In this document: in pieces, positions 2,666 to 24,656 of the stretch
How the letters are laid out: the number at the start of each line of letters is the position of its first letter
Numbering within the stretch: the stretch's first letter is position 1
Source: a virus
Length of the DNA: 36,839 nt
Strand: one strand, 5' to 3'
IMG/VR virus record: IMGVR_UViG_3300043353_000017
Span: 1-36,839 of that record
Made by a program: the position numbers and the translations under genes
The notes under the pieces: model-generated
The model's database searches: none
What the model saw: the letters and a program-made list of their open reading frames with translations, nothing else
Told to the model about the DNA's origin: nothing

Positions 2666-4614
2666 TGGGCATATTTCCTGCGGATAGACCAAAGCCAGCG
2701 GGTCTGCTCGACATGGTTTATAACACCGGCACCGGTTTGTACCGGGATGCTGGTCGCGCTTTGGGTTGGTTCGCTCGACAGGCCGCTAAACCAGACGCGG
2801 AAGTTCAGTCCGATTTCCGAAATTTTGCTTCCGACATGGGGACGAGCTTAGCCTCCATCCCCGAGAAAGCGCTTGGCGCTTCAGCGGAAGCTACAACTTC
2901 CGGTGTATACAACCCCGCTCCAATCGTTGATGCAGCGATGCTTCCGATGGGCGGCCCCGCTGCCAAGGCGGGTGAATTTGTGCTTGGCGCGGGTGCCAAA
3001 AAGGCAACTCCTCTTTTGGGCGTTTTGCATGGGGCTGGTTCCCCCGATAATTTTAGTCTTTTGACGCATCCTCCTCCTACCCATGATTTGGGGGTGCACA
3101 CCGCTATTGCACCACCCATAACTACGGGCTACGCTCTTAAGCACGGGTCTGACCTTAATGCCTGGCCTTATGTAGTTAAGCCTGGGGAAGAGCCAAAAAT
3201 AGACTTTATGAGTAAGAAAAGATTTGATGACCCTGACGCTGCAGGGCCAAGGACTAAGCCCTATCTGTTAGACGCCGATGGAACAATGAAATTCCCGATA
3301 GACGCCGGGAAATGGAATGAGCCGTGGTCTGTTATAACGCCGATAGAAGACGAAATGAGGGCGGGTAAGCCTTACCCTAGAGGATTATTGGAAGATCTAC
3401 ACAATATATCTGGTTCTGACGAAATATGGCAGAGTCAATTTGGCCCCATGATGCAGGATAGGGGCATAAATCACTTATTTTATCCCCACGCGGGTAGTTG
3501 GAAACCCGATTCTTTTCTAACTTTCGATCCTAATAAACTGACACCCCGATATTCCCCCGAGGGGGTGAAACTTGCTGAGGAACGTGGGGTAGTAGAACCT
3601 AAGGGCCACATTTCAAGAAAAAATTGGCAAAGAGACCCCGATATCCCTTCCTATCAAGAAAAGCCGTGGGTAATGCCTAGGGGCGTTATGTATAAGCCCC
3701 AAGAAATTGAAACTTTAACTAGGGAACCTAAAAAGAATACGTTCCAATGGTGGGGTGACGATGCTCCTCCGTCCAAGGTTAAACAACTCCATGATGAAGA
3801 AGCGGCTCTGCAAGCTAAACTTATAGCTGACAAAAAAGCGGCTGTTGACAATGTCGCTGAGGGTAAAGAGCTATATAAGCAATACACCAGTGGCAAGATA
3901 ACAGAAGATCAATACCACGAGGCCCACAAAAAATTTATCAACCAACCCGGATGGACACAAAATTCTAATATGATACACCAAGCTAATAACAACAAAATTT
4001 ATGACAGTTACATGGAAGGTGCGATAACAAAAAGTGAATTGTTTAAACAATATCAAGAATACAATAAACTTGACGGTCCCCCAATCGGCGCTCATTTTAC
4101 TGGCGGCGGCAAAGGGAATGTGTGGATGAAAAATCCAGATCATCCAAGTTATGATGCTGGTGATCCCAGTGGTTTTAAACAATCCGCGACGTACAAAGCT
4201 AATCCTCATCTTTATGACACGCCAGCTGAAACGTTAAATAAATCCCCACCTCAAGGCGGGATGTCGCTGGCCGGGAAGTACGACAAGTTACTTAATGATT
4301 TGGATGACGGAATTATAACCAAAGCTGAGTATGACCAAGAGGTCAATAAGCTCCACGCACAAATACCCAATCAGTCATTGTCGTCCAGCGATAAAGCGAT
4401 AGCTGACATGGATGAGGCGCTTAAAAAGATAGACGAGGAACTGGCCAAAAAAGGCTTGGACAAGACTCAAAAGGCTGCCAAGGGAATTTTAGATCCAGAG
4501 GATGCACTGTTTGACTCCGCAAAGGATGCTAAGCTAAAGTCCGCTAAGTATAACGTTGATTGGGCGGCAGCGTTGGATTATTTCAAGAATTTTAAGAAAA
4601 AGAAATCCGATTAA
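2665..4614 (+). CDS. Large late protein with ADP-ribosyltransferase-like domain and SHOCT-like repeats
   Basis: A 649-residue protein with a GTG start fused to the previous stop (TAGTG). Residues about 1-115 are Ala/Gly/Pro-rich. Residues about 120-300 have the outline of a toxin-like ADP-ribosyltransferase fold: Leu-His-Gly near 121-123, a Gly-Val-His-Thr strand about 22 residues later, a Tyr-Ala helix, then a closing Asp-Ser-Phe-Leu-Thr-Phe-Asp strand near 282-288. From 400 on, three short Gly-x-Ile-Thr-x-x-(Gln/Glu/Leu) repeats (about 400-425, 443-468, 536-565) look like SHOCT modules. The segment from about 3050 to 4600 is visibly richer in A+T than the capsid and tail genes, a sign of separate origin. 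It may be a virion-carried effector or simply a structural protein; catalysis is unproven. Confidence 0.75.
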   Translation: MGIFPADRPKPAGLLDMVYNTGTGLYRDAGRALGWFARQAAKPDAEVQSDFRNFASDMGTSLASIPEKALGASAEATTSGVYNPAPIVDAAMLPMGGPAAKAGEFVLGAGAKKATPLLGVLHGAGSPDNFSLLTHPPPTHDLGVHTAIAPPITTGYALKHGSDLNAWPYVVKPGEEPKIDFMSKKRFDDPDAAGPRTKPYLLDADGTMKFPIDAGKWNEPWSVITPIEDEMRAGKPYPRGLLEDLHNISGSDEIWQSQFGPMMQDRGINHLFYPHAGSWKPDSFLTFDPNKLTPRYSPEGVKLAEERGVVEPKGHISRKNWQRDPDIPSYQEKPWVMPRGVMYKPQEIETLTREPKKNTFQWWGDDAPPSKVKQLHDEEAALQAKLIADKKAAVDNVAEGKELYKQYTSGKITEDQYHEAHKKFINQPGWTQNSNMIHQANNNKIYDSYMEGAITKSELFKQYQEYNKLDGPPIGAHFTGGGKGNVWMKNPDHPSYDAGDPSGFKQSATYKANPHLYDTPAETLNKSPPQGGMSLAGKYDKLLNDLDDGIITKAEYDQEVNKLHAQIPNQSLSSSDKAIADMDEALKKIDEELAKKGLDKTQKAAKGILDPEDALFDSAKDAKLKSAKYNVDWAAALDYFKNFKKKKSD

Positions 4615-4626
4615 TGTTCCGACTAC

Positions 4627-4655
4627 TTGACAACGAACCTAGGGCGTGGTACCAT
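4627..4655 (+). promoter_or_regulatory. Sigma70 promoter in the tail operon
   Basis: TTGACA at 4627-4632, a 17-bp spacer ending in GGCGTGG, then TACCAT at 4650-4655. The spacer end and -10 are the same as in the early promoter at 34449-34477. It lies in the short gap after the ADP-ribosyltransferase-like gene. The -10 box overlaps the ATG of the next gene (4654), so its transcripts would lack that start codon and would best serve the adaptor and later genes. Confidence 0.6.
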
Positions 4656-4962
4656 GACTGAACGTAAATTCGTTTATCAGAACGACGGCGCTGTGAAGCG
4701 CACGATGGTGTGGGAAGACGATGAACCCGAAACGGTCCGCGTCTACACGGAACAAGACCTAACGCAGGCCCTCGAAAATAATAAGATAATGAGGGAACTC
4801 CACCCTAGACGCTCCACTAATAAGTTGGTGGCACGAGGGGTGCCCGTCGCAGTCTACGAGAAATCCGTTCTCGAAGGTTGGGACAGCAAAGACTGGGCAC
4901 GTTGGCTCGACGACCCAGATAATGCGGCATTCCGAATTTGGCGCGGCAGGGTTGGTAAATAA
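4654..4962 (+). CDS. Hypothetical protein before the head-tail adaptor
   Basis: A 102-residue, strongly charged protein with several Trp residues in its second half. The ATG was chosen over an in-frame TTG at 4627 because that TTG lies in the -35 box and has no Shine-Dalgarno. The TAA stop overlaps the adaptor start (TAATG). I do not recognise a family. Position suggests a head or connector role, and coupling with the adaptor gene is likely. Confidence 0.75.
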   Translation: MTERKFVYQNDGAVKRTMVWEDDEPETVRVYTEQDLTQALENNKIMRELHPRRSTNKLVARGVPVAVYEKSVLEGWDSKDWARWLDDPDNAAFRIWRGRVGK

Positions 4963-5594
4963 TGGGCACATTTCTCACCGACAAATGCGTCGAAATCCGT
5001 AACTGGTTGGCGATAGGCGAGGACGTTTATCCGGACCCCGTTGTTACTGGCTGGATTCGCATGGCTGAGGAATATCTTTCGACTGCTCTCCGCGTCAAGC
5101 ACATGGTTCAGATTGACACCACCCTCGTGGTTACGGAGCGCGTGGCGTTGCCACTAGATTGGCAGGAAATTCGGCTGGTCCGTCGCTTGGATACGGGCGG
5201 CGTTTGTCGCTATCAGACCCCCGACACGTTTTACAACCCGGAATTTCCGGATGACCCAACGCCGCCGTTCAACACTCGAACCAGTCGTTACACCATCCTC
5301 GGCAACTACCTGATTATCAACGAGCCGAACGACAATGTAGACGTCGAACTGGCGTATTATCAGAATATCCCGCCGCTCACGAATGACGCCAACAATTGGG
5401 CGAATTGCTACCACCAGACCGTCTACACTCTCAAAATTCTGCACACCGCCGCGTTGTACGCGATCGAGGACCAGCGAGTGGAAATTTGGGACAAAGAAGT
5501 AGTCCGGATGGTCAACGGGATGAATGCGCAACACAAGATCGACATGGCGAGCGGTTCTGTGTTGATGCCAACAAGGAAGAAGTCGTTTGGCTGA
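4962..5594 (+). CDS. Head-tail adaptor (connector) protein
   Basis: A 210-residue protein. The N-terminus is helical (residues 5-45: a cysteine-containing helix, then Trp-Ile-Arg-Met-Ala-Glu-Glu-Tyr), followed by a beta-rich middle and a C-terminal helical part with Tyr-Thr-Leu-Lys-Ile-Leu. This is the layout of the adaptor proteins that form a ring under the portal in podoviruses (T7 gp11/SU10 adaptor type). It comes right before the fibre genes, as in those phages. The family is assigned from layout and general resemblance, so the exact homology is uncertain. Confidence 0.65.
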   Translation: MGTFLTDKCVEIRNWLAIGEDVYPDPVVTGWIRMAEEYLSTALRVKHMVQIDTTLVVTERVALPLDWQEIRLVRRLDTGGVCRYQTPDTFYNPEFPDDPTPPFNTRTSRYTILGNYLIINEPNDNVDVELAYYQNIPPLTNDANNWANCYHQTVYTLKILHTAALYAIEDQRVEIWDKEVVRMVNGMNAQHKIDMASGSVLMPTRKKSFG

Positions 5595-5865
5595 TGGGCG
5601 CAAATATGGCAGACTCGCTTATGGCCGATACAGCTACGATCTTTGGTCTTCGTGGAAGCCTATTCCGCCGGAGCCACCTGTCGACATTTGGGTTCCGATA
5701 CCGGGGCTTCCCCCGGATGGTTGGGGGCCTACTTACCCCCCGTTTAGTTGCAGCGCCCCCGATGTTTGGGTCGGCGTCGGGATGGCGGCGACTAATTGGG
5801 GGTCTGCACTTTCTACCCCAACCGAAATATGGGTACCAGTTACTAAACCGGTGTTGAATGGCTGA
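5587..5865 (+). CDS. Trp/Pro-rich small tail protein
   Basis: A 92-residue protein starting at TTG, 8 bases inside the adaptor end, with an AAGGAAG site upstream. It begins with a Gly/Tyr/Arg patch (Tyr-Gly-Arg-Leu-Ala-Tyr-Gly-Arg) and then has spaced Trp-x-Pro units. I recognise this layout from small proteins placed before tail fibre genes in podoviruses. The stop overlaps the next start by 8 bases. A competing ATG-started frame over the same bases encodes an Arg-rich product that looks less like a protein. Function unknown; probably tail-associated. Confidence 0.6.
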   Translation: MADGRKYGRLAYGRYSYDLWSSWKPIPPEPPVDIWVPIPGLPPDGWGPTYPPFSCSAPDVWVGVGMAATNWGSALSTPTEIWVPVTKPVLNG

Positions 5866-7552
5866 CGAGTATACCCCAAATCTTGGGTTAACGAAGCCTG
5901 ACGTCGGCTACTCCGACGATACTTGGGGTGAGAAGCTAAACATAAATTTTGATAAGATCGACGCCGCTATTAGTGGCTCCATTACGATACCGCCCGAATA
6001 CATTACCGAATCCGAATTGCCGGAATTGGTGGACGACCGCGTTGCGGCGCTGCTGCAAGCCGGGGCTAACGTAACCATTACGTACGACGACGCCGGGAAC
6101 AAAATCACCATCGCTTCCTCGGGCGGTGGAAGTGGCGGCGGAGTTTCCGTAACGATGTCGGTTGACCCACCTGCTTCTCCAGTGGCGGGCAATTTGTGGT
6201 TCGAAAGCGACACCGGCCTTTTGTATATCTATTATGTTGATCCCACTCCGAATTCGTATTGGGTGGCGCTAACCACATTGTCGGGCGGCGGGGGCGCTCC
6301 ACCTTCGGACACCAACCCATTGATGAACGGCGTTGCTGCCCCCGGTGTTGCAACGCTTTATGCGCGGGGCGACCATGTTCATCCAAGTGATACGTCAAAA
6401 GCATCGACAGCATCTGTAGCAGCGAAAGCTGATACTACTTATGTTGATACCCAAAATGCTCTTCGGCTATTGAAAACAGCTAATCTAAGCGATGTTGCTA
6501 ATGTCGTAACATCAAGGCAGAACATCTACGCCGCACCCTTTGATGCGATGGCGTACAACGGTATGCAGATCAACGGCTCGTTCGAAGTTAGCCAGGAACT
6601 TGGGACGACGGGCGTTACTCTTACCGGGACAGGTGGTGATGTCAAGCCGTGTGATGGTTGGCATGTGGTGGCTACTGCTGCGGGCGGCATGAATGTGACA
6701 GCGGCGCAGTTAACCGGCAATGGCGGTCAGTCAGCGACCGGCTCAGACTTGCGGGTAAATCCGGTTGCCGCATTCACGGCTCCGACAAATGGCGATCAGC
6801 TATATTTACGCCAGTCGTTGGAAGGCTATCGTGTCGCGCGATTGGGGTGGGGCGCGGGCGCGGCGCAACAGTTGTCTTATGCGTTCTGGATTTTCTGTTC
6901 GGCCGCAACAGCGGTCATCGCTACGCGCATAATGAACTCCGCCGCCACCCGCGCATTTTATCTGGAGCATGCGCTGGTGGGCGGCTGGAACTACGTGACC
7001 GGAACAATTCCTGTCGGTGACACGACAGGGGTGTGGCTGAAGACCAACGGCGTCGGAATGTATTTCGACATTTTGCTGGCGGGCAAGACAGCTTCGCCTG
7101 TTGCTCCGGGTAGCTGGACTTCCACGATTGCGGTTGCCACCACGGGAATGAACAATAACGCGGTATCTATAGCAGGTCAGGTCGTCGCTCTTGCGAATTT
7201 CATTGTTCTCCCCGGCCTTGAAGCACCATCCGCCGCGCGCTCGGCGTTGATCGTACGACCTTATGATCAGGAACTGCTGACGTGCCGCCGATACTGGCAA
7301 AGCAATTTTATTGCTGTTGATGTGCTAGGAACAATTGCAAGTCAGGTAGCGACTGTATCCATAAATTACGCACCGTCGTTGCGTAGTGCGCCTAGCACAC
7401 TTGTCGGAACGGCTCTGCTTTCTTCCAACTGTGCAGCCCCGGTATTTACGGCCGTCGCTGCTACGGCAAACTATGCACCGGCAACGGTGGTCGGTACGGC
7501 TGTTGGCCGGTTCTATTGGATGGGTACAGTTGTTTCTGACGCGAGGATTTAA
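5858..7552 (+). CDS. Tail fibre protein 1
   Basis: A 564-residue protein. The N-terminus (Pro-Asn-Leu-Gly-Leu-Thr-Lys-Pro, then Trp-Gly-x-Lys-x-Asn-x-Asn-Phe-Asp) is a known virion-attachment start of phage fibres and is shared with the collar protein at 9192. A Gly-rich hinge and a Gly-Asp-His-Val-His-Pro-Ser motif follow. From about residue 190 the C-terminal domain is parallel to the next gene (Lys-Thr-Ala-Asn-Leu-Ser-Asp-Val-Ala-Asn-Val-Val; Tyr-Asp-Gln-Glu-Leu near the end) and probably binds the host surface. The ATG lies inside the previous gene, and the stop overlaps the next start (TAATG). Confidence 0.85.
   Translation: MADEYTPNLGLTKPDVGYSDDTWGEKLNINFDKIDAAISGSITIPPEYITESELPELVDDRVAALLQAGANVTITYDDAGNKITIASSGGGSGGGVSVTMSVDPPASPVAGNLWFESDTGLLYIYYVDPTPNSYWVALTTLSGGGGAPPSDTNPLMNGVAAPGVATLYARGDHVHPSDTSKASTASVAAKADTTYVDTQNALRLLKTANLSDVANVVTSRQNIYAAPFDAMAYNGMQINGSFEVSQELGTTGVTLTGTGGDVKPCDGWHVVATAAGGMNVTAAQLTGNGGQSATGSDLRVNPVAAFTAPTNGDQLYLRQSLEGYRVARLGWGAGAAQQLSYAFWIFCSAATAVIATRIMNSAATRAFYLEHALVGGWNYVTGTIPVGDTTGVWLKTNGVGMYFDILLAGKTASPVAPGSWTSTIAVATTGMNNNAVSIAGQVVALANFIVLPGLEAPSAARSALIVRPYDQELLTCRRYWQSNFIAVDVLGTIASQVATVSINYAPSLRSAPSTLVGTALLSSNCAAPVFTAVAATANYAPATVVGTAVGRFYWMGTVVSDARI
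6433..6552 (+). repeat. Diverged direct repeat between fibre genes 1 and 2 (first copy)
   Basis: These bases are closely matched by 7808-7927 in the next gene, with most differences at third codon positions. Both copies encode the same fibre segment, so this is a duplicated module kept under protein-level selection. It marks the join between the different N-terminal parts and the related C-terminal receptor-binding parts. Confidence 0.75.
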
Positions 7553-18742: not shown

Positions 18743-19034
18743 GTTCCACCCCTTGCAGCCTCAACGCGATGTAGGCCAAGAATGCGAAGTTGGCCACGTC
18801 CATCAGTTCTATCAACGTGTTTTCGTTGTTTTTATCCTCGTAGAACTGATCCTTGAATTCCTCCACTTCCCCCTGCAATAAATTTAAGATTTTGGGGATA
18901 GTGGCGATCGTCGGGGTATCCTTGTGGCTGTTCTTGTCCAGCTTTTCGATCATGCCAGCGAAGAACAAACCCAAATGGATGGTGTACTTCTCCAGCGACG
19001 GAGGGACGTCCAGTGTAATCTCGTCATTCTGCAT
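18672..19034 (-). CDS. mazZ: MazG-like nucleotide pyrophosphohydrolase (MazZ-like)
   Basis: A 120-residue all-alpha protein. The MazG metal-binding pattern is complete: E56-x-x-E59, then E76-x-x-D79 followed by Val-Ala-Asn. Single-domain MazG proteins beside PurZ (MazZ in phage S-2L) split dGTP to dGMP, the substrate PurZ needs, and can also lower dATP. The gene overlaps the end of purZ by 11 bases and has a GAGGAAG site, so the two are coupled. The symbol is inferred from the motif plus its neighbour; a general housekeeping MazG role is the alternative. Confidence 0.8.
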   Translation of the reverse strand: MQNDEITLDVPPSLEKYTIHLGLFFAGMIEKLDKNSHKDTPTIATIPKILNLLQGEVEEFKDQFYEDKNNENTLIELMDVANFAFLAYIALRLQGVEHANKNKKIGSTVVQEEIRKGLEK

Positions 19035-20076
19035 AGATTGCTTCCTCTCTTAATACGTCGCTCACTTTGGGTCCCCTCGCCACGAGGAAATCAAAGTATT
19101 TGTTCATTGTTCCCTTGGCGGCGTTTAGGTCCTCCATTAGGCTGATCTGTTGTTCGCGATCCAGATAATCCATGTGACTGACGAACACGTAGTCCGGATC
19201 GTTGGCGTAGCAAGCCTCGTAGAATTGCTCCATGGAGAATGATGCGACGCGACGTACACGGTTGGTCACCGTCGTCCTTTCTTCCGCGACCCCCAGATTT
19301 TCCCAATTAGTCTCGTGCTGGTCCGAGTACCAACCTCCAGCAGAATACCCGTCAACGTCGCCAACACGAATAGGAAAGGTACGGATTGCCATGTAAGTAC
19401 GAGATAGGTGTCTAGGAGGAATTCGCGCATCGGCTAATCCTTGCATTACGGTGCACTCGCGACTCGTAACTTTCGGATAAAACTGTGAGTTGATACCAAG
19501 GCTAAACCCCTGCGACACCTCCATGAAGTAGGCGTTGCGCTCCGGCTTAATCCGGTGGTTAAGAATAGACACATTGTGAGCAATCAGACCCAGCGAATTG
19601 CCAGCGATAGCGTTGGGATCGCGCATAATTTTACGCATCAATGCCACGCCAGTTCCGCTCCGAGTCCCCGCCACTTGAGATATCGGGCCTATTTGTTCCA
19701 TCCTCCGGTCTTCATCGGTAACAATGGCGGCGTTGGGGTGCACGAAAATCTGAAGGTTGGGGAATTTCTCCGCCTCCTTCTTCAGAATGTCGCGGTCGAT
19801 TATTGCCCCCGCCGACAGGTAAGCGGGTATGTGCAACCCGGCGCAACGCATGTACACGCTGAACACGGGGAGTTGCTTGAGCACGATCTTCTCGTCGCCG
19901 TAATAGAACGTGTGCCCGCTGTTGGGACCCCCGCTGTAAATTGCGCCGCTGAATTTGCCTGCGTGGCCGTGCTTGATGGCTATTTCGGCAAGGTAGGCGC
20001 TGAGCGCCCCCTTTCCTGTTGAGCCGAACTGGCCGTCGACGACGCAATGAACGCCGTTGTACTTGAAGAGTCCCAT
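19024..20076 (-). CDS. purZ: PurZ, N6-succino-2-amino-2'-deoxyadenylate synthase
   Basis: A 350-residue adenylosuccinate-synthetase homologue, shorter than cellular PurA (about 430). The P-loop reads Gly-Gln-Phe-Gly-Ser-Thr-Gly-Lys-Gly (15-23): Ser19 stands where PurA has its catalytic Asp (GDEGKGK). This Ser is the known mark of PurZ, which joins aspartate to dGMP using ATP or dATP. Other PurA landmarks remain: Asn-Ser-Gly-His55-Thr, Gln-Gly near 189, Arg-Thr-Phe-Pro-Ile-Arg-Val-Gly at 232-239, and Arg-Val-Arg-Arg near 273. The GTP-specific Thr-Lys-Leu-Asp of PurA is Ser-His-Met-Asp (300-303), in line with a non-GTP cofactor. Host PurB would complete dZMP formation. The start overlaps the previous stop by one base (TGATG). 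Confidence 0.93.
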   Translation of the reverse strand: MGLFKYNGVHCVVDGQFGSTGKGALSAYLAEIAIKHGHAGKFSGAIYSGGPNSGHTFYYGDEKIVLKQLPVFSVYMRCAGLHIPAYLSAGAIIDRDILKKEAEKFPNLQIFVHPNAAIVTDEDRRMEQIGPISQVAGTRSGTGVALMRKIMRDPNAIAGNSLGLIAHNVSILNHRIKPERNAYFMEVSQGFSLGINSQFYPKVTSRECTVMQGLADARIPPRHLSRTYMAIRTFPIRVGDVDGYSAGGWYSDQHETNWENLGVAEERTTVTNRVRRVASFSMEQFYEACYANDPDYVFVSHMDYLDREQQISLMEDLNAAKGTMNKYFDFLVARGPKVSDVLREEAIYAE

Positions 20077-20495
20077 CAGCGTTTTCCATCCACAGATGAG
20101 GGTTCCGACGCCTGCACCTTACCCATTTCATCATCGTTACGAATGGGCTGCACTTTGGGCGAGGCTGGTTTCTGGTATGGCGTTGGATTGGGCGTCAACA
20201 TCGACGCGAGGGCGGTGTAACCAGCCCCGTCCACGAAATTGTCCATTGAATAACCGTAGACGCCGCGCGCGATTTTGGTCATGGACATCATAACTGCGAT
20301 GTCGTGGGGCTTCAATAGCACCTCTTCGCGGCTGGAGTAAGCGTGGCCGATGTACACGCTCCACAATTCGGCGATCATCTTGAATGACCGCTCGGTGTGA
20401 CCGTGTTCCTTGAGGCGGGACCGAATGGCATCACCAGCGTCGAGCAAGGTGCCTTCGGCGATTTCCAGCGGGGTGTCGCGTAGCTTCGGATTCAT
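20076..20495 (-). CDS. DUF6378-like protein in the PurZ operon
   Basis: A 139-residue, mainly helical protein. The conserved core reads Arg-Leu-Lys-Glu-His-Gly-His-Thr-Glu-Arg-Ser-Phe near 30-41, Leu-Trp-Ser-Val-Tyr-Ile-Gly, then Lys-Pro-His-Asp-Ile-Ala-Val-Met-Met-Ser-Met-Thr-Lys-Ile-Ala-Arg and a Tyr-x-Asp/Gly-Tyr end. I match this by eye to the DUF6378 family of phage proteins, which look like MazG-type all-alpha enzymes, though their activity is not known to me. Between the nuclease and purZ, it could be a nucleotide-pool enzyme. The C-terminal 40 residues are Pro/Ser-rich and probably disordered. The ATG overlaps the nuclease stop (ATGA). Confidence 0.75.
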   Translation of the reverse strand: MNPKLRDTPLEIAEGTLLDAGDAIRSRLKEHGHTERSFKMIAELWSVYIGHAYSSREEVLLKPHDIAVMMSMTKIARGVYGYSMDNFVDGAGYTALASMLTPNPTPYQKPASPKVQPIRNDDEMGKVQASEPSSVDGKR

Positions 20496-20887
20496 GTTGT
20501 GTCTTTCTGTGAGAAATAGTAGAGGGATAGTTGCTTGTAGAACGGGACGTCGCTCGTCGTTACCGAAAAGCAATCCCTGCGGTCGATAGTCATTTTGGGT
20601 TTGTGGAAGTAGTACACCCCGTCCTTGAACCCAATAACGACGGGGATTGCGTGGCCACCATCTTCGGCGGCTAATTTGATGCGTTGCAGTTCTATCAACT
20701 GCCTTGGCGTCGGGCCAAACACGTTGTCGCGGATCATCTTAACCTCGGCCATAAACACTGGTAGCCGGGGGAGGATAAGGATCATGTCGTAGGTGCCCAC
20801 CGAATACTGGTCTTCGATGCGGCGCGCGTAACCTCCACCTTCCTGCATCGACTTGACCATGTTTCGCTTGACATCAGCCTCTTTCAT
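20492..20887 (-). CDS. PD-(D/E)XK (VRR-NUC-like) nuclease
   Basis: A 131-residue protein. The active-site outline is D34, then E48-Val-K50 after a hydrophobic strand, with Gln63 in the next helix. A Gly-Gly-Gly-Tyr stretch lies before it, and Gly-Thr-Tyr-Asp-Met-Ile comes at 31-36. This is the compact PD-(D/E)XK fold seen in phage VRR-NUC and junction-resolving nucleases. It may process replication or recombination intermediates with the SNF2 protein further down the operon. Overlaps of 14 and 4 bases join it to its neighbours. Confidence 0.8.
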   Translation of the reverse strand: MKEADVKRNMVKSMQEGGGYARRIEDQYSVGTYDMILILPRLPVFMAEVKMIRDNVFGPTPRQLIELQRIKLAAEDGGHAIPVVIGFKDGVYYFHKPKMTIDRRDCFSVTTSDVPFYKQLSLYYFSQKDTT

Positions 20888-21364: not shown

Positions 21365-22036
21365 TTACGCCAGACGGAGCTGACGCTTGCGGCGCATGGC
21401 AAGGCCGCCAATGCCGAAGAAGCCCGCGATCATCATAGCCCACGTCGAGGCTTCCGGCACCGCCGTTACTACCGGGATCGGGGATACGTCGAGGCGGAAG
21501 TGCTCGAAGTCAGTGATGTTGCTGCCAACGCCGACGAGGAAGATGTCAATGTCGGTAATTACCTCACCATTGACAGCGGTGAAGTCGTACCCATGCGGCT
21601 TGTGGATATCCAGTTGGAATGCCGCATCAGTCAGACTACCGAAGTTGAACGTCTCAGCGGTGCCGTCAGCCTTCACCGCATCCACCCGGATGAACACGCT
21701 GCCGCTGCCGTTCAGCGAGAAGATGTCGCGTGTGGTACCAAGCTGAACGGTGTCGGTACTGTCGAAAAGGGTGATGTCGAGATCGCGCGTGTTGACGATC
21801 TTGATGTCGTTCCCACTGGTGGCACTGGCGAACGAGCCGTTGCCTGAGAGGTCGCGGAAGCGGACGATCTCGTTATTCTGGCCATTGAGGTGACCGAGAA
21901 TGAGGCTGCCGTTAACGACAGTGGTGGACGTAACGACGTTGCCGGTGCTGCCAAGTCCAGTGGTATCAAGCAAAACATCGGCCTTCGCCGCCCCCGACAA
22001 TGCAATTAAAGCGGTGGTCGCAAAAAGTAGTTTTCT
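21365..22036 (-). CDS. Secreted protein with PEP-CTERM (PEPxxWA-type) sorting signal
   Basis: A 223-residue protein. Residues 1-20 are a signal peptide (Met-Arg-Lys, hydrophobic core, Ala-Lys-Ala cleavage site). The middle is beta-rich, with Asn/Asp/Thr and no Cys, and lacks a recognised enzyme fold. The last 31 residues are a PEP-CTERM tail: Val-Pro-Glu-Ala-Ser-Thr-Trp-Ala-Met-Met (193-202), a Gly/Phe-rich membrane helix, then Arg-Arg-Lys-Arg (215-218). In bacteria such tails are processed by exosortase. The ATG has a clear AGGAG site. Hairpins flank the gene on both sides and its style is bacterial, so it looks like a cargo (moron) gene for the cell surface. The third position is Ala instead of Pro, a variant seen in this sub-family. 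Confidence 0.9.
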   Translation of the reverse strand, partial: RKLLFATTALIALSGAAKADVLLDTTGLGSTGNVVTSTTVVNGSLILGHLNGQNNEIVRFRDLSGNGSFASATSGNDIKIVNTRDLDITLFDSTDTVQLGTTRDIFSLNGSGSVFIRVDAVKADGTAETFNFGSLTDAAFQLDIHKPHGYDFTAVNGEVITDIDIFLVGVGSNITDFEHFRLDVSPIPVVTAVPEASTWAMMIAGFFGIGGLAMRRKRQLRLA

Positions 22037-22069
22037 CATAGTATTCTCCTGATCAGGGATGGTGCGGAA

Positions 22070-22108
22070 TGCACCGCGCAAGGTCAGTCGCTGGCCTTGG
22101 GCGGTGCA
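22070..22108 (-). terminator. Hairpin between the polymerase cluster and the PEP-CTERM gene
   Basis: Arms at 22070-22083 and 22095-22108 pair as TGCACCGC / GCGGTGCA plus a further AAGG/CCTT part after one mismatch. It starts one base after the stop codon of the gene at 22109. There is no U-run, so it may be a weak terminator, a processing site or an operator. Confidence 0.5.
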
Positions 22109-22749: not shown

Positions 22750-22873
22750 AGGTTTCTTTGATGTAAATGTTAACACACGGACCAAATGGCTCCCCTGTTT
22801 CGGCCATAATTTCCTTGATTCTGTCAAGGAGCCTATCAGCTTCAGCTTGCGGCATTGATTCACTATTCTTCAT
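22727..22873 (-). CDS. Short protein coupled to the DNA polymerase gene
   Basis: A 48-residue frame overlapping the polymerase end by 11 bases and the next gene by 23. It is a charged helix (Ala-Asp-Arg-Leu-Leu-Asp-Arg-Ile-Lys-Glu-Ile-Met) with a Cys-containing tail. An in-frame ATG at 22894 would lengthen it but has no Shine-Dalgarno. The overlaps support a real gene; the small size limits confidence. Confidence 0.5.
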   Translation of the reverse strand: MKNSESMPQAEADRLLDRIKEIMAETGEPFGPCVNIYIKETYGTAIEN

Positions 22874-24656
22874 ATTTGTCAAGTTTGTCTCCATAGCTGG
22901 CTTGTGCCCAATCTTTGCCGGACCCCAAACCGAAAGGAATAGGGACTGCAAGCTCGAGAAGTTCTGCCACATGTTCGATACTCCGAATTAGATCACGAAC
23001 GTCGTGTCCGGGATTACGTTGCCAGAGTAAACTGTCGTGGATAGTAAGTAGGATTTGAACATCGTCCGGGTAGGCATCTTCGTACTGACAGGCCCGGAGT
23101 AAACACATCTTGAGGTGTTCCCCTCCGCCGTTCTGAATGATTCTGGATACCGCACGGTATGCGAACCGTGGATCGTCCAAATAAGCTCTGCGCCCAAGTA
23201 GGGTCTTGACATAGCCGCGCCGCTTGAATACATGAACTGCCGTGTCCTGAAAGGTCTTGATGTGGGGGAAAGCGTCGGTGAGGAACGCGCGGTGCGCGTC
23301 ACGCGCTCGCTCGATGGGCCACCTCATGTGCCCCGCCAGCGTCGGCGGGGACATCATGGTGAGCATCCCCATCCCCAGCCGCTTTGCGGTATCGCGGTCT
23401 AGCCCTAGGACTTCTGACGCTCTATCGTGGATGTCCATTGTTCCACTACGGTATCCGTCGACGAGAGCAGGGTCACCCGAATAGTGAGTGAAGAGTCTAG
23501 GCTCTTGTTGCTTCGCGTCCGCTTCTTCGATAACAAACCCGTCGTCAGGGACGACAAGGCGTCTAACAACTCTTCCAACGTCAATGTTCCGTTTGGGGAA
23601 AGCTTGCAGATTAGGTTCGCTACACGAGAATCTGACACCGGCAACTCCGTAGTCGTCTGACTTGGATTGGTTGAGAACGGGGTGGACTCGTCCATTGACA
23701 TTGTGTGTGTCAATAAGGGGTGCGATAAAGCTATCCCGTGCCTTTTCGAGCCGTCTAACTGCAAGGATGGCTCCTCCGATTTCATTTGTTTCGAGCCACT
23801 TTTCTGTGAAGGAGAACGCCCCTCCAGCGGTACGGGAAAACTCGGTATCTGTGAAGCCATTTGAGCGATAGAGAGCCTCAACGGCTTTTGGCGACCGGAC
23901 GTTGAAGCCGGGGACAAAGACTTTAGATTTTTCCGCGATGGCTTCTTCAATTTCGCCTCCTACTCTTCCTGCGTATTCGCTGTCGATTTTAAGTCCTCGG
24001 GCGTGAATTCGTGCGACGTAGGGTAGCAAGTCGCATTCCAGCTGCCAAGGTTTCCGAAGTTCGTCAGCATCAAGGATTCTCTGTTGGGCGGCCCATAGTT
24101 CCAGCGTCGATATACCGTCACCTGTGGCATAATCAACGACGAGGGGGTGGTCTCCTTCAAGTCTCCAGAACTTTCCCATTTGCTTTCGGTCTGGGAGTCC
24201 CCCGAATCGTCGGGCGAGTTCGGCATAGAGCAAGTCCCCTTTCTTTGGTGTCACCTTGCGCCGTAAGCATGATTCGTCGAGGCTGTATCCTTGGGTGATG
24301 TCGCTGATGATCGCCTCGTTGATCATCGTGTCTTCCAGCGGACCCAACAGTTCTATACCATGCCGTAGACAAATACGTAAATCGAAGCCAAGATTATGAC
24401 CAACAGTCCGAAATAGAAGACGGCTGCGATCTCTAAAAGCACTAGCGAGAGCGCGCTCGAAGTCTTCTGCATTTGGGATATTGCCACCTCCTTCGTGGCG
24501 AACCGGGACATATATCGAATACTCCTCATTGGTAATGACGTAACCGCAGATCTTATCATGAACAGTCAATCCTGTTGTTTCGGTATCGAAAGCTATAGGT
24601 TTATAATGGCACCGCACCAAGTCGAGCGCGAGTTCCGGATTAATACATTGCTTCAT
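22863..24656 (-). CDS. Family A DNA polymerase with 3'-5' exonuclease (DpoZ-like candidate)
   Basis: A 597-residue protein. Exonuclease motifs are complete: D24/E26 (exo I), His-Asn-x-x-Phe-Asp92 (exo II), Tyr176-x3-Asp180 (exo III). Polymerase motif A keeps D380 and E385; motif B keeps R421 and K425 but the O-helix positions that are Asn-Phe-Gly...Tyr-Gly in Pol I are Gly428-Met429-Gly430...Thr433-Met434. Motif C is His540-Asp541-Ser542, with Ser for the usual Glu. No 5' nuclease domain is present. It replicates the phage genome. Given purZ nearby it may be a DpoZ-type enzyme favouring dZTP, but that is inference. Confidence 0.92.
   Translation of the reverse strand: MKQCINPELALDLVRCHYKPIAFDTETTGLTVHDKICGYVITNEEYSIYVPVRHEGGGNIPNAEDFERALASAFRDRSRLLFRTVGHNLGFDLRICLRHGIELLGPLEDTMINEAIISDITQGYSLDESCLRRKVTPKKGDLLYAELARRFGGLPDRKQMGKFWRLEGDHPLVVDYATGDGISTLELWAAQQRILDADELRKPWQLECDLLPYVARIHARGLKIDSEYAGRVGGEIEEAIAEKSKVFVPGFNVRSPKAVEALYRSNGFTDTEFSRTAGGAFSFTEKWLETNEIGGAILAVRRLEKARDSFIAPLIDTHNVNGRVHPVLNQSKSDDYGVAGVRFSCSEPNLQAFPKRNIDVGRVVRRLVVPDDGFVIEEADAKQQEPRLFTHYSGDPALVDGYRSGTMDIHDRASEVLGLDRDTAKRLGMGMLTMMSPPTLAGHMRWPIERARDAHRAFLTDAFPHIKTFQDTAVHVFKRRGYVKTLLGRRAYLDDPRFAYRAVSRIIQNGGGEHLKMCLLRACQYEDAYPDDVQILLTIHDSLLWQRNPGHDVRDLIRSIEHVAELLELAVPIPFGLGSGKDWAQASYGDKLDKYEE

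Follow-up and report, generated by a model that had tools for sequence, protein, structure and literature searches.

A family A DNA polymerase encoded by an uncultivated virus (IMG/VR virus record IMGVR_UViG_3300043353_000017; the whole stretch analysed, 36,839 nt, is called the window) very probably serves a Z-DNA system (Z, 2-aminoadenine), probably as the replicative PolA of the phage, judging from its residues and its gene neighbourhood. Its gene context puts it in the same system as the known DpoZ enzymes, and it probably falls into a third sequence class of PolA linked to Z, beside the phiVC8-like and Wayne-like DpoZ groups. We infer that it reads templates containing Z and prefers dZTP to dATP, and it is plausible that its O-helix residues cause this preference. 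The original prediction had suggested that changes in the O helix and motif C might tune base choice, for example for dZTP; the link to a 2-aminoadenine system is now well supported by a purZ gene 2.8 kb downstream of the polymerase on the same strand and by co-occurrence of the two genes throughout the clade.

The polymerase lies on the minus strand, which has the only open frame at 22863–24656 (the plus strand has stops) and which the original prediction had left unstated. Its assignment to family A was confirmed by matches to Pfam DNA_pol_A (4.6e-40), DNA_pol_A_exo1 (7e-9) and PHROG_17. An AlphaFold2 model (mean pLDDT 93.4) has the Klenow fold. The top Foldseek match of this model was 7pbk, which was absent among the 50 VIA-align matches listed; as judged from the predicted structure, fold comparison assigns the polymerase to no single PolA subgroup. 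The features discussed below are:

19024–20076, minus strand: purZ, 350 aa, with the signature QFGSTGKG (PHROG_1211, 1e-51, and alignment)
20076–20573, minus strand: DUF6378 gene, directly upstream of purZ (possibly MazG-like, judged by motif)
22863–24656, minus strand: family A DNA polymerase with 3′-5′ exonuclease, 597 aa (ATG start at 24656, stop ending at 22863)
23031–23039, minus strand: motif C, His540-Asp541-Ser542 (HDS; alignment to Pol I)
23145–23147, minus strand: Ser504, equivalent to E. coli N845 (alignment to Pol I)
23349–23396, minus strand: O helix/motif B, residues 421–436, RDTAKRLGMGMLTMMS (alignment and model)
23358–23360, minus strand: Thr433, equivalent to E. coli Y766 and Bst Y714 (alignment to Pol I)
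23370–23372, minus strand: Met429, equivalent to E. coli F762 (alignment to Pol I)
23502–23519, minus strand: motif A, Asp380-Glu385 (DAKQQE), with catalytic Asp and steric-gate Glu kept
24117–24131, minus strand: exonuclease motif 3, Tyr176 to Asp180 (alignment)
24162–24236, minus strand: E1/E2 exonuclease helices with an RKQM motif (24177–24188), matching R161/M165 of phiVC8 DpoZ
24381–24383, minus strand: exonuclease motif 2, Asp92 (alignment)
24579–24587, minus strand: exonuclease motif 1, Asp24-Thr-Glu26 (alignment)

The hallmarks of family A were present in motifs A (D705, E710), B (R754, K758) and C (H881, D882) and in the exo I–III residues. Alignment to Pol I showed that the polymerase retains O-helix positions R754 (Arg421), K758 (Lys425) and G763 (Gly430), as well as the pocket and catalytic residues D705 (Asp380), E710 (Glu385), R668 (Arg342), Q849 (Gln508) and the catalytic Asp541. 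The same alignment bore out the proposed replacement of F762 and Y766 by Met429 and Thr433, and the neighbouring Asn and Gly had indeed changed (N761 to Gly428, G767 to Met434), as had A759 (Arg426) and I760 (Leu427). Motif C reads HDS rather than HDE, again as predicted. Arg426 for A759 and Ser504 for N845 are two extra changes that the prediction did not contain; E. coli N845 is reported to be a sensor of primer-terminal pair shape. Position 766, which bears on fidelity, stands out, with Thr in the window polymerase versus an aromatic residue in nearly all relatives. The exonuclease had been described as intact, and D24, E26, D92, Y176 and D180 are all in place.

The unusual O helix is shared by a large group of viruses. 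A polymerase search of IMG/VR recovered 66 loci (60–98% identical), and every one of the 66 covering the O helix had KR[LM][GAS]MG[MI]L[TS]MM, while every one of the 66 reaching motif C had HDS. PurZ-based searches brought in further loci, marine ones among them, with MTG, LTM or QTG at 762/766/767. Together, about 80 distinct related IMG/VR polymerases and that of Ochrobactrum phage vB_OspP_OH form one clade (the T766 clade). Among the 59 clade members less than 90% identical, position 433 (766) was Thr in 57 and Ser in 2, position 429 (762) was Met in 47, Leu in 6 and Gln in 6, and position 542 was Ser in 57 and Ala in 1. The Thr433 codons of 79 distinct proteins were ACC (22), ACG (21), ACT (21) and ACA (12). 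Since all four Thr codons are in use, the residue has been held while its codon drifts, and the near-even codon use combined with 57 Thr and 2 Ser among 59 members indicates that Thr/Ser at 766 is actively kept. Chance or an assembly artefact was excluded, because the motif turns up again and again, in dozens of contigs drawn from many metagenomes.

Throughout this clade the polymerase travels with purZ. Among loci found by the polymerase alone whose sequence continues for at least 3 kb past the gene, purZ was present in 47/47, and in T766-clade loci it begins 0.7–3.4 kb after the polymerase gene. In clade loci without purZ, the sequence ends shortly after the polymerase or was clipped there; for instance, L009 stops just short of where purZ begins in its relative L010. 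Two new full records (L327 and L348) both carried purZ. A pattern search of the DNA made without regard to purZ matched 108 stretches, and the 80 of these that were listed belonged mostly to the T766 clade; neither among these 80 nor elsewhere in the sample was a polymerase with Met/Leu/Gln762 and Thr/Ser766 seen that demonstrably lacked purZ. The original prediction would be refuted if its substitutions were common in related polymerases from phages without purZ. The combination of Met/Leu/Gln762 with Thr/Ser766 withstood this comparison, but HDS, Leu762 and Gly761 with Leu762 did occur singly in such phages.

Individual residues were therefore poor markers of a Z system. HDS was rejected as a specific signal, as it is found in most purZ-phage polymerases but also in the purZ-free L170 group (described below), which has Met766, and in Staphylococcus phage OPT-SC01 (L402, 143 kb), whose PolA has Phe766 and HDS with no purZ match. 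Change at N761/F762 was likewise discarded, given Gly761 with Leu762 in purZ-free HTVC023P and Leu762 in psg01-like phages (purZ was found in 0/80 psg01-like loci, only 18 of which have 4 kb downstream). Phe766 is not confined to Z phages, because OPT-SC01 has it without detectable purZ, and with Met766 in the L170 group this makes loss of Tyr766 alone non-diagnostic. As a strict purZ marker, Tyr766 loss was excluded by these two cases and by L306, a purZ phage whose T766-clade polymerase (4086–6092 of that locus) keeps Tyr766 and Asn845 with HDS. The L306 polymerase possibly reflects the ancestral state. The tree provided only 3 independent contrasts, too small a number for a sign test on them to reach significance, and the non-Z sample is modest. 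Six further purZ loci (L290, L291, L299, L300, L302 and L303) had no family A polymerase within 8 kb flanks; by analogy with S-2L, these phages may rely on a polymerase of a different kind.

The PurZ protein of the window has Ser in place of the catalytic Asp of PurA, within the QFGSTGKG signature. Among solved enzymes it lies nearest to PurZ of phiVC8, S-2L and SH-Ab 15497; on NF038379 it scores 205, below the cut-off of 300. The adjacent DUF6378 gene was found in 19/19 purZ phages tested (16 above cut-off), and in 0/4 purZ-free L170-group phages and 0/14 control genomes; it is perhaps an additional, MazG-like gene of the Z cluster. Because its protein model is moderate (pLDDT 73) and has no PDB fold match, a MazG-fold enzyme is a motif-based guess. 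No DatZ-type dATPase (YfbR-like, PF12917) was matched, either in the window or in its 98% relative L002 (a 44 kb record), and a YfbR/DatZ-type protein was undetected in the purZ-bearing records L002, L005, L016, L053, L273 and L277. A YfbR-type gene is present in OH, L031, L061 and others. Other genes in the window are podovirus-like (head, tail and ejection genes, a helicase and a primase-helicase, the last 50% identical to that of phage OH). A protein encoded at 21365–22081 (minus strand) has a signal-peptide-like start and a PEP-CTERM-like end (a bacterial surface-sorting signal), with a sub-threshold Pfam match (20.1 bits versus 20.7); this end may hint at a sphingomonad-like host. None of the GTDB genomes searched for close relatives matched.

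In a tree computed with the trait columns removed, the T766 clade had support of 100/100, with L306 as the lone member of its own branch, and the phiVC8-like group formed a second clade (100/100). The free tree set non-Z phage polymerases beside the T766 clade with weak support (89/79). On the curated DpoZ_1 model (NF038380) the window polymerase scored 243 bits against a cut-off of 500, compared with 332 for non-Z psg01 and 314 for R5C, and it had no match to DpoZ_2 (NF038381); these scores place it in neither curated DpoZ family by sequence.

Comparison with the two DpoZ groups gave a mixed picture. Phages have two DpoZ groups, one with PurZ0 and one with PurZ, according to PMC12884076. The phiVC8-like enzymes (PDB 7pbk; NF038380 phage_DpoZ_1; DpoZ-2 in that paper) are 28% identical to the window polymerase. 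In common with it, they are family A polymerases with the exonuclease active-site residues, a purZ neighbour, HDS, E1/E2 exonuclease helices with RK.QM and a replaced N845. They differ in having Leu762, Phe766, Asn767 and Gly845 where the window has Met, Thr, Met and Ser; the phiVC8 signature L455, F459 and G548 (Leu762, Phe766 and Gly845) was thus not found, and the alignment has gaps at finger insertions 2 and 3 of phiVC8 DpoZ. The Wayne-like enzymes (NF038381 phage_DpoZ_2; DpoZ-1) are similar in being PolA proteins encoded next to a PurZ-family gene and in having HDS, but are about 20% identical, have Phe762, Phe766, Gly767 and Asn845, and are partnered with PurZ0. Tyr to Phe at 766 is the sole characteristic change common to both DpoZ clades according to PMC8599892, and Thr/Ser at 766 is unmentioned in the accessible parts of PMC8599892 and PMC12884076. 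The proposed alignment with DpoZ proteins showed HDS in common with both groups and the E1/E2 residues in common with the phiVC8-like group; the Phe766 of both clades is missing from the window polymerase. The closest named phage is vB_OspP_OH (MT028492), with 62% identity in the polymerase and 53% in PurZ. It shares Met762, Met767, HDS, the location of purZ and the clade, but has Ser766 rather than Thr766, as well as YfbR-type (DatZ-like) and pyrophosphohydrolase genes beside purZ; the window lacks a YfbR-type gene.

The E1/E2 element is shared with phiVC8-like DpoZ. The window polymerase has modelled helices at 141–151 and 157–165 that include R157 and M160, and mutation of the corresponding E2-helix residues R161/M165 in phiVC8 DpoZ alters exonuclease activity (PMC8599892). 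The E2-helix motif FGG..RK(x)QM was present in most pattern-readable members of both the T766 clade and the phiVC8-like group, and was not found in psg01/R5C-type non-Z polymerases. This common motif speaks for kinship or a parallel need.

Polymerases of the phiVC8-like clade also occur without purZ. Six contigs (L170, L171, L172, L173, L174 and L219; several ∼40 kb) encode DpoZ homologues nested beside the BUCT555 polymerase, with the O helix RKELNLS[MI]IMGCG, N845A and HDS. On NF038380 the L170 polymerase scores 769 bits, which exceeds the cut-off. In the records searched, this L170 group had no purZ, YfbR or DUF6378 match, and positive controls did match. As a reference, we used 59 phiVC8-like polymerases with Leu762/Phe766, almost all of which come with purZ; 127 columns are conserved among them. 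The L170 lineage had changed 12/127 of these columns, 6 of the 12 in motifs B and 6, at positions 426, 433 (F to M), 434 (N to G), 500, 503 and 504 (G to A), which include 766, 767 and 845. The enrichment was significant for motifs B and 6 (Fisher; P = 9e-4), but since that set was picked after the list was seen, the fairer value is P = 0.013, obtained when motifs A, B, 6 and C are pooled. In four small control groups with purZ there were 0–1 such changes, and a deep sister group had 11, none at 766, 767 or 845. The L170 group therefore looks like a case of Z-cluster loss accompanied by change in the polymerase pocket. A second phiVC8-like polymerase with no purZ downstream (L218, 3431–5287) has Phe766, Asn767 and Ser, not Gly, at 845, and the gene after it resembles a P-loop nucleotide kinase. 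The evidence from purZ loss in the L170 group and L218 amounts to one or two events only.

Work on Pol I enzymes suggests how position 766 could matter. In Pol I, Y766 and E710 form a hydrogen bond and shape the nascent-pair pocket; Y766A is a mutator, and Y766F resembled the wild type in simulation (PMC4882331). Simulations of Bst polymerase with a wobble G:T pair, not Z:T, have Tyr714 (766) clashing with the 2-amino group of the template dG; when residue 714 is Ser, it is hydrogen-bonded to this group 92% of the time (PMC12756729). Bst Y714S has been crystallised with a G:T mismatch (3hpo). These Klenow/Bst enzymes and their Y766S/Y714S mutants have a fold like the window polymerase, and Ser at 766 like OH, but the mutants are laboratory variants of enzymes that treat A and Z alike, whereas the window change is natural and comes with Met762 and Ser845. 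At position 845, N845A lowers selectivity (PMC3347538). Because Klenow, whose residues are the normal ones, makes no distinction between A and Z (PMC8342488), special residues would serve to exclude A rather than to accept Z. We picture Pol I Tyr766, bonded to Glu710, as a pocket wall beside the nascent pair and near the purine 2-amino group; Thr or Ser would remove the ring and set a small hydroxyl beside that group. The 2-amino group of Z could then donate a hydrogen bond to Thr433. Equipped also with Met762, Ser845 and an intact exonuclease that has the E1/E2 helices, the enzyme would reject weak A:T pairs or cut them out and would extend Z:T pairs. A pocket that expects a 2-amino group would suit all four pairs, since every base pair of ZTGC-DNA has one on its purine. 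The published contact lies mostly on the side of the template, so other residues may matter more for choosing the incoming dZTP.

The strongest form of this reading, a Z-selective class in which a small 766 hydroxyl directly checks the 2-amino group and which arose independently of both DpoZ clades, we regard as quite unlikely. A better prospect, though we consider it somewhat less likely than not, is that the T766 clade is a deep branch of phiVC8-like DpoZ (DpoZ-2) whose selectivity, inherited from a common ancestor, resides elsewhere than in the O helix, such as in the E1/E2 helices or the pol-to-exo switch. Joining the two clades was neither rejected nor established (AU test; P = 0.578), the joint tree being 3.5 log units better, and such kinship would fit the shared E2 motif and the single DpoZ group given for all PurZ phages in PMC12884076. 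The weak placement beside non-Z polymerases in the free tree points the other way, as do the missing insertions 2 and 3, Leu762, Phe766 and Gly845. In phiVC8 DpoZ itself, selectivity was not traced to one pocket residue, the sole crystal structure giving no single determinant (PMC8599892).

It is also conceivable, if rather unlikely, that the polymerase tolerates Z without selecting it, with PurZ and dATP removal setting the Z content and the O-helix change being lineage-specific drift of a permissive, lower-fidelity site, fixed once in the clade's ancestor. Klenow does not discriminate, nor is the PrimPol with which S-2L makes its Z-DNA selective (PMC8342488); the site of Klenow Y766S is more open and less accurate (PMC3121766); and the T766 clade is one evolutionary event, so its co-occurrence with purZ may be co-inherited. 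Drift accords poorly with the persistence of Thr/Ser across deep divergence and synonymous turnover, and the purZ-loss lineage altered these very positions; moreover, the YfbR/DatZ route of dATP removal seems absent from the window and several relatives. We consider it very improbable that the polymerase is unrelated to Z-DNA, purZ merely being carried in a genome that is ordinary or has another base change. Direct evidence of Z was not found for any T766-clade phage, and the purZ of OH has been read as ordinary nucleotide salvage (PMC7139368), but the catalytic Ser signature, the kinship of the window protein to true PurZ enzymes and the YfbR-type and pyrophosphohydrolase genes of OH all argue against this.

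Curated models at present miss the T766 clade and would name the purZ-free L170 polymerase DpoZ. The Thr/Ser766 clade, the Tyr-keeping L306 and the two phiVC8-like lineages that lost purZ form a natural variant series on DpoZ preference, and polymerases of the T766 clade would matter for laboratory Z-DNA synthesis.
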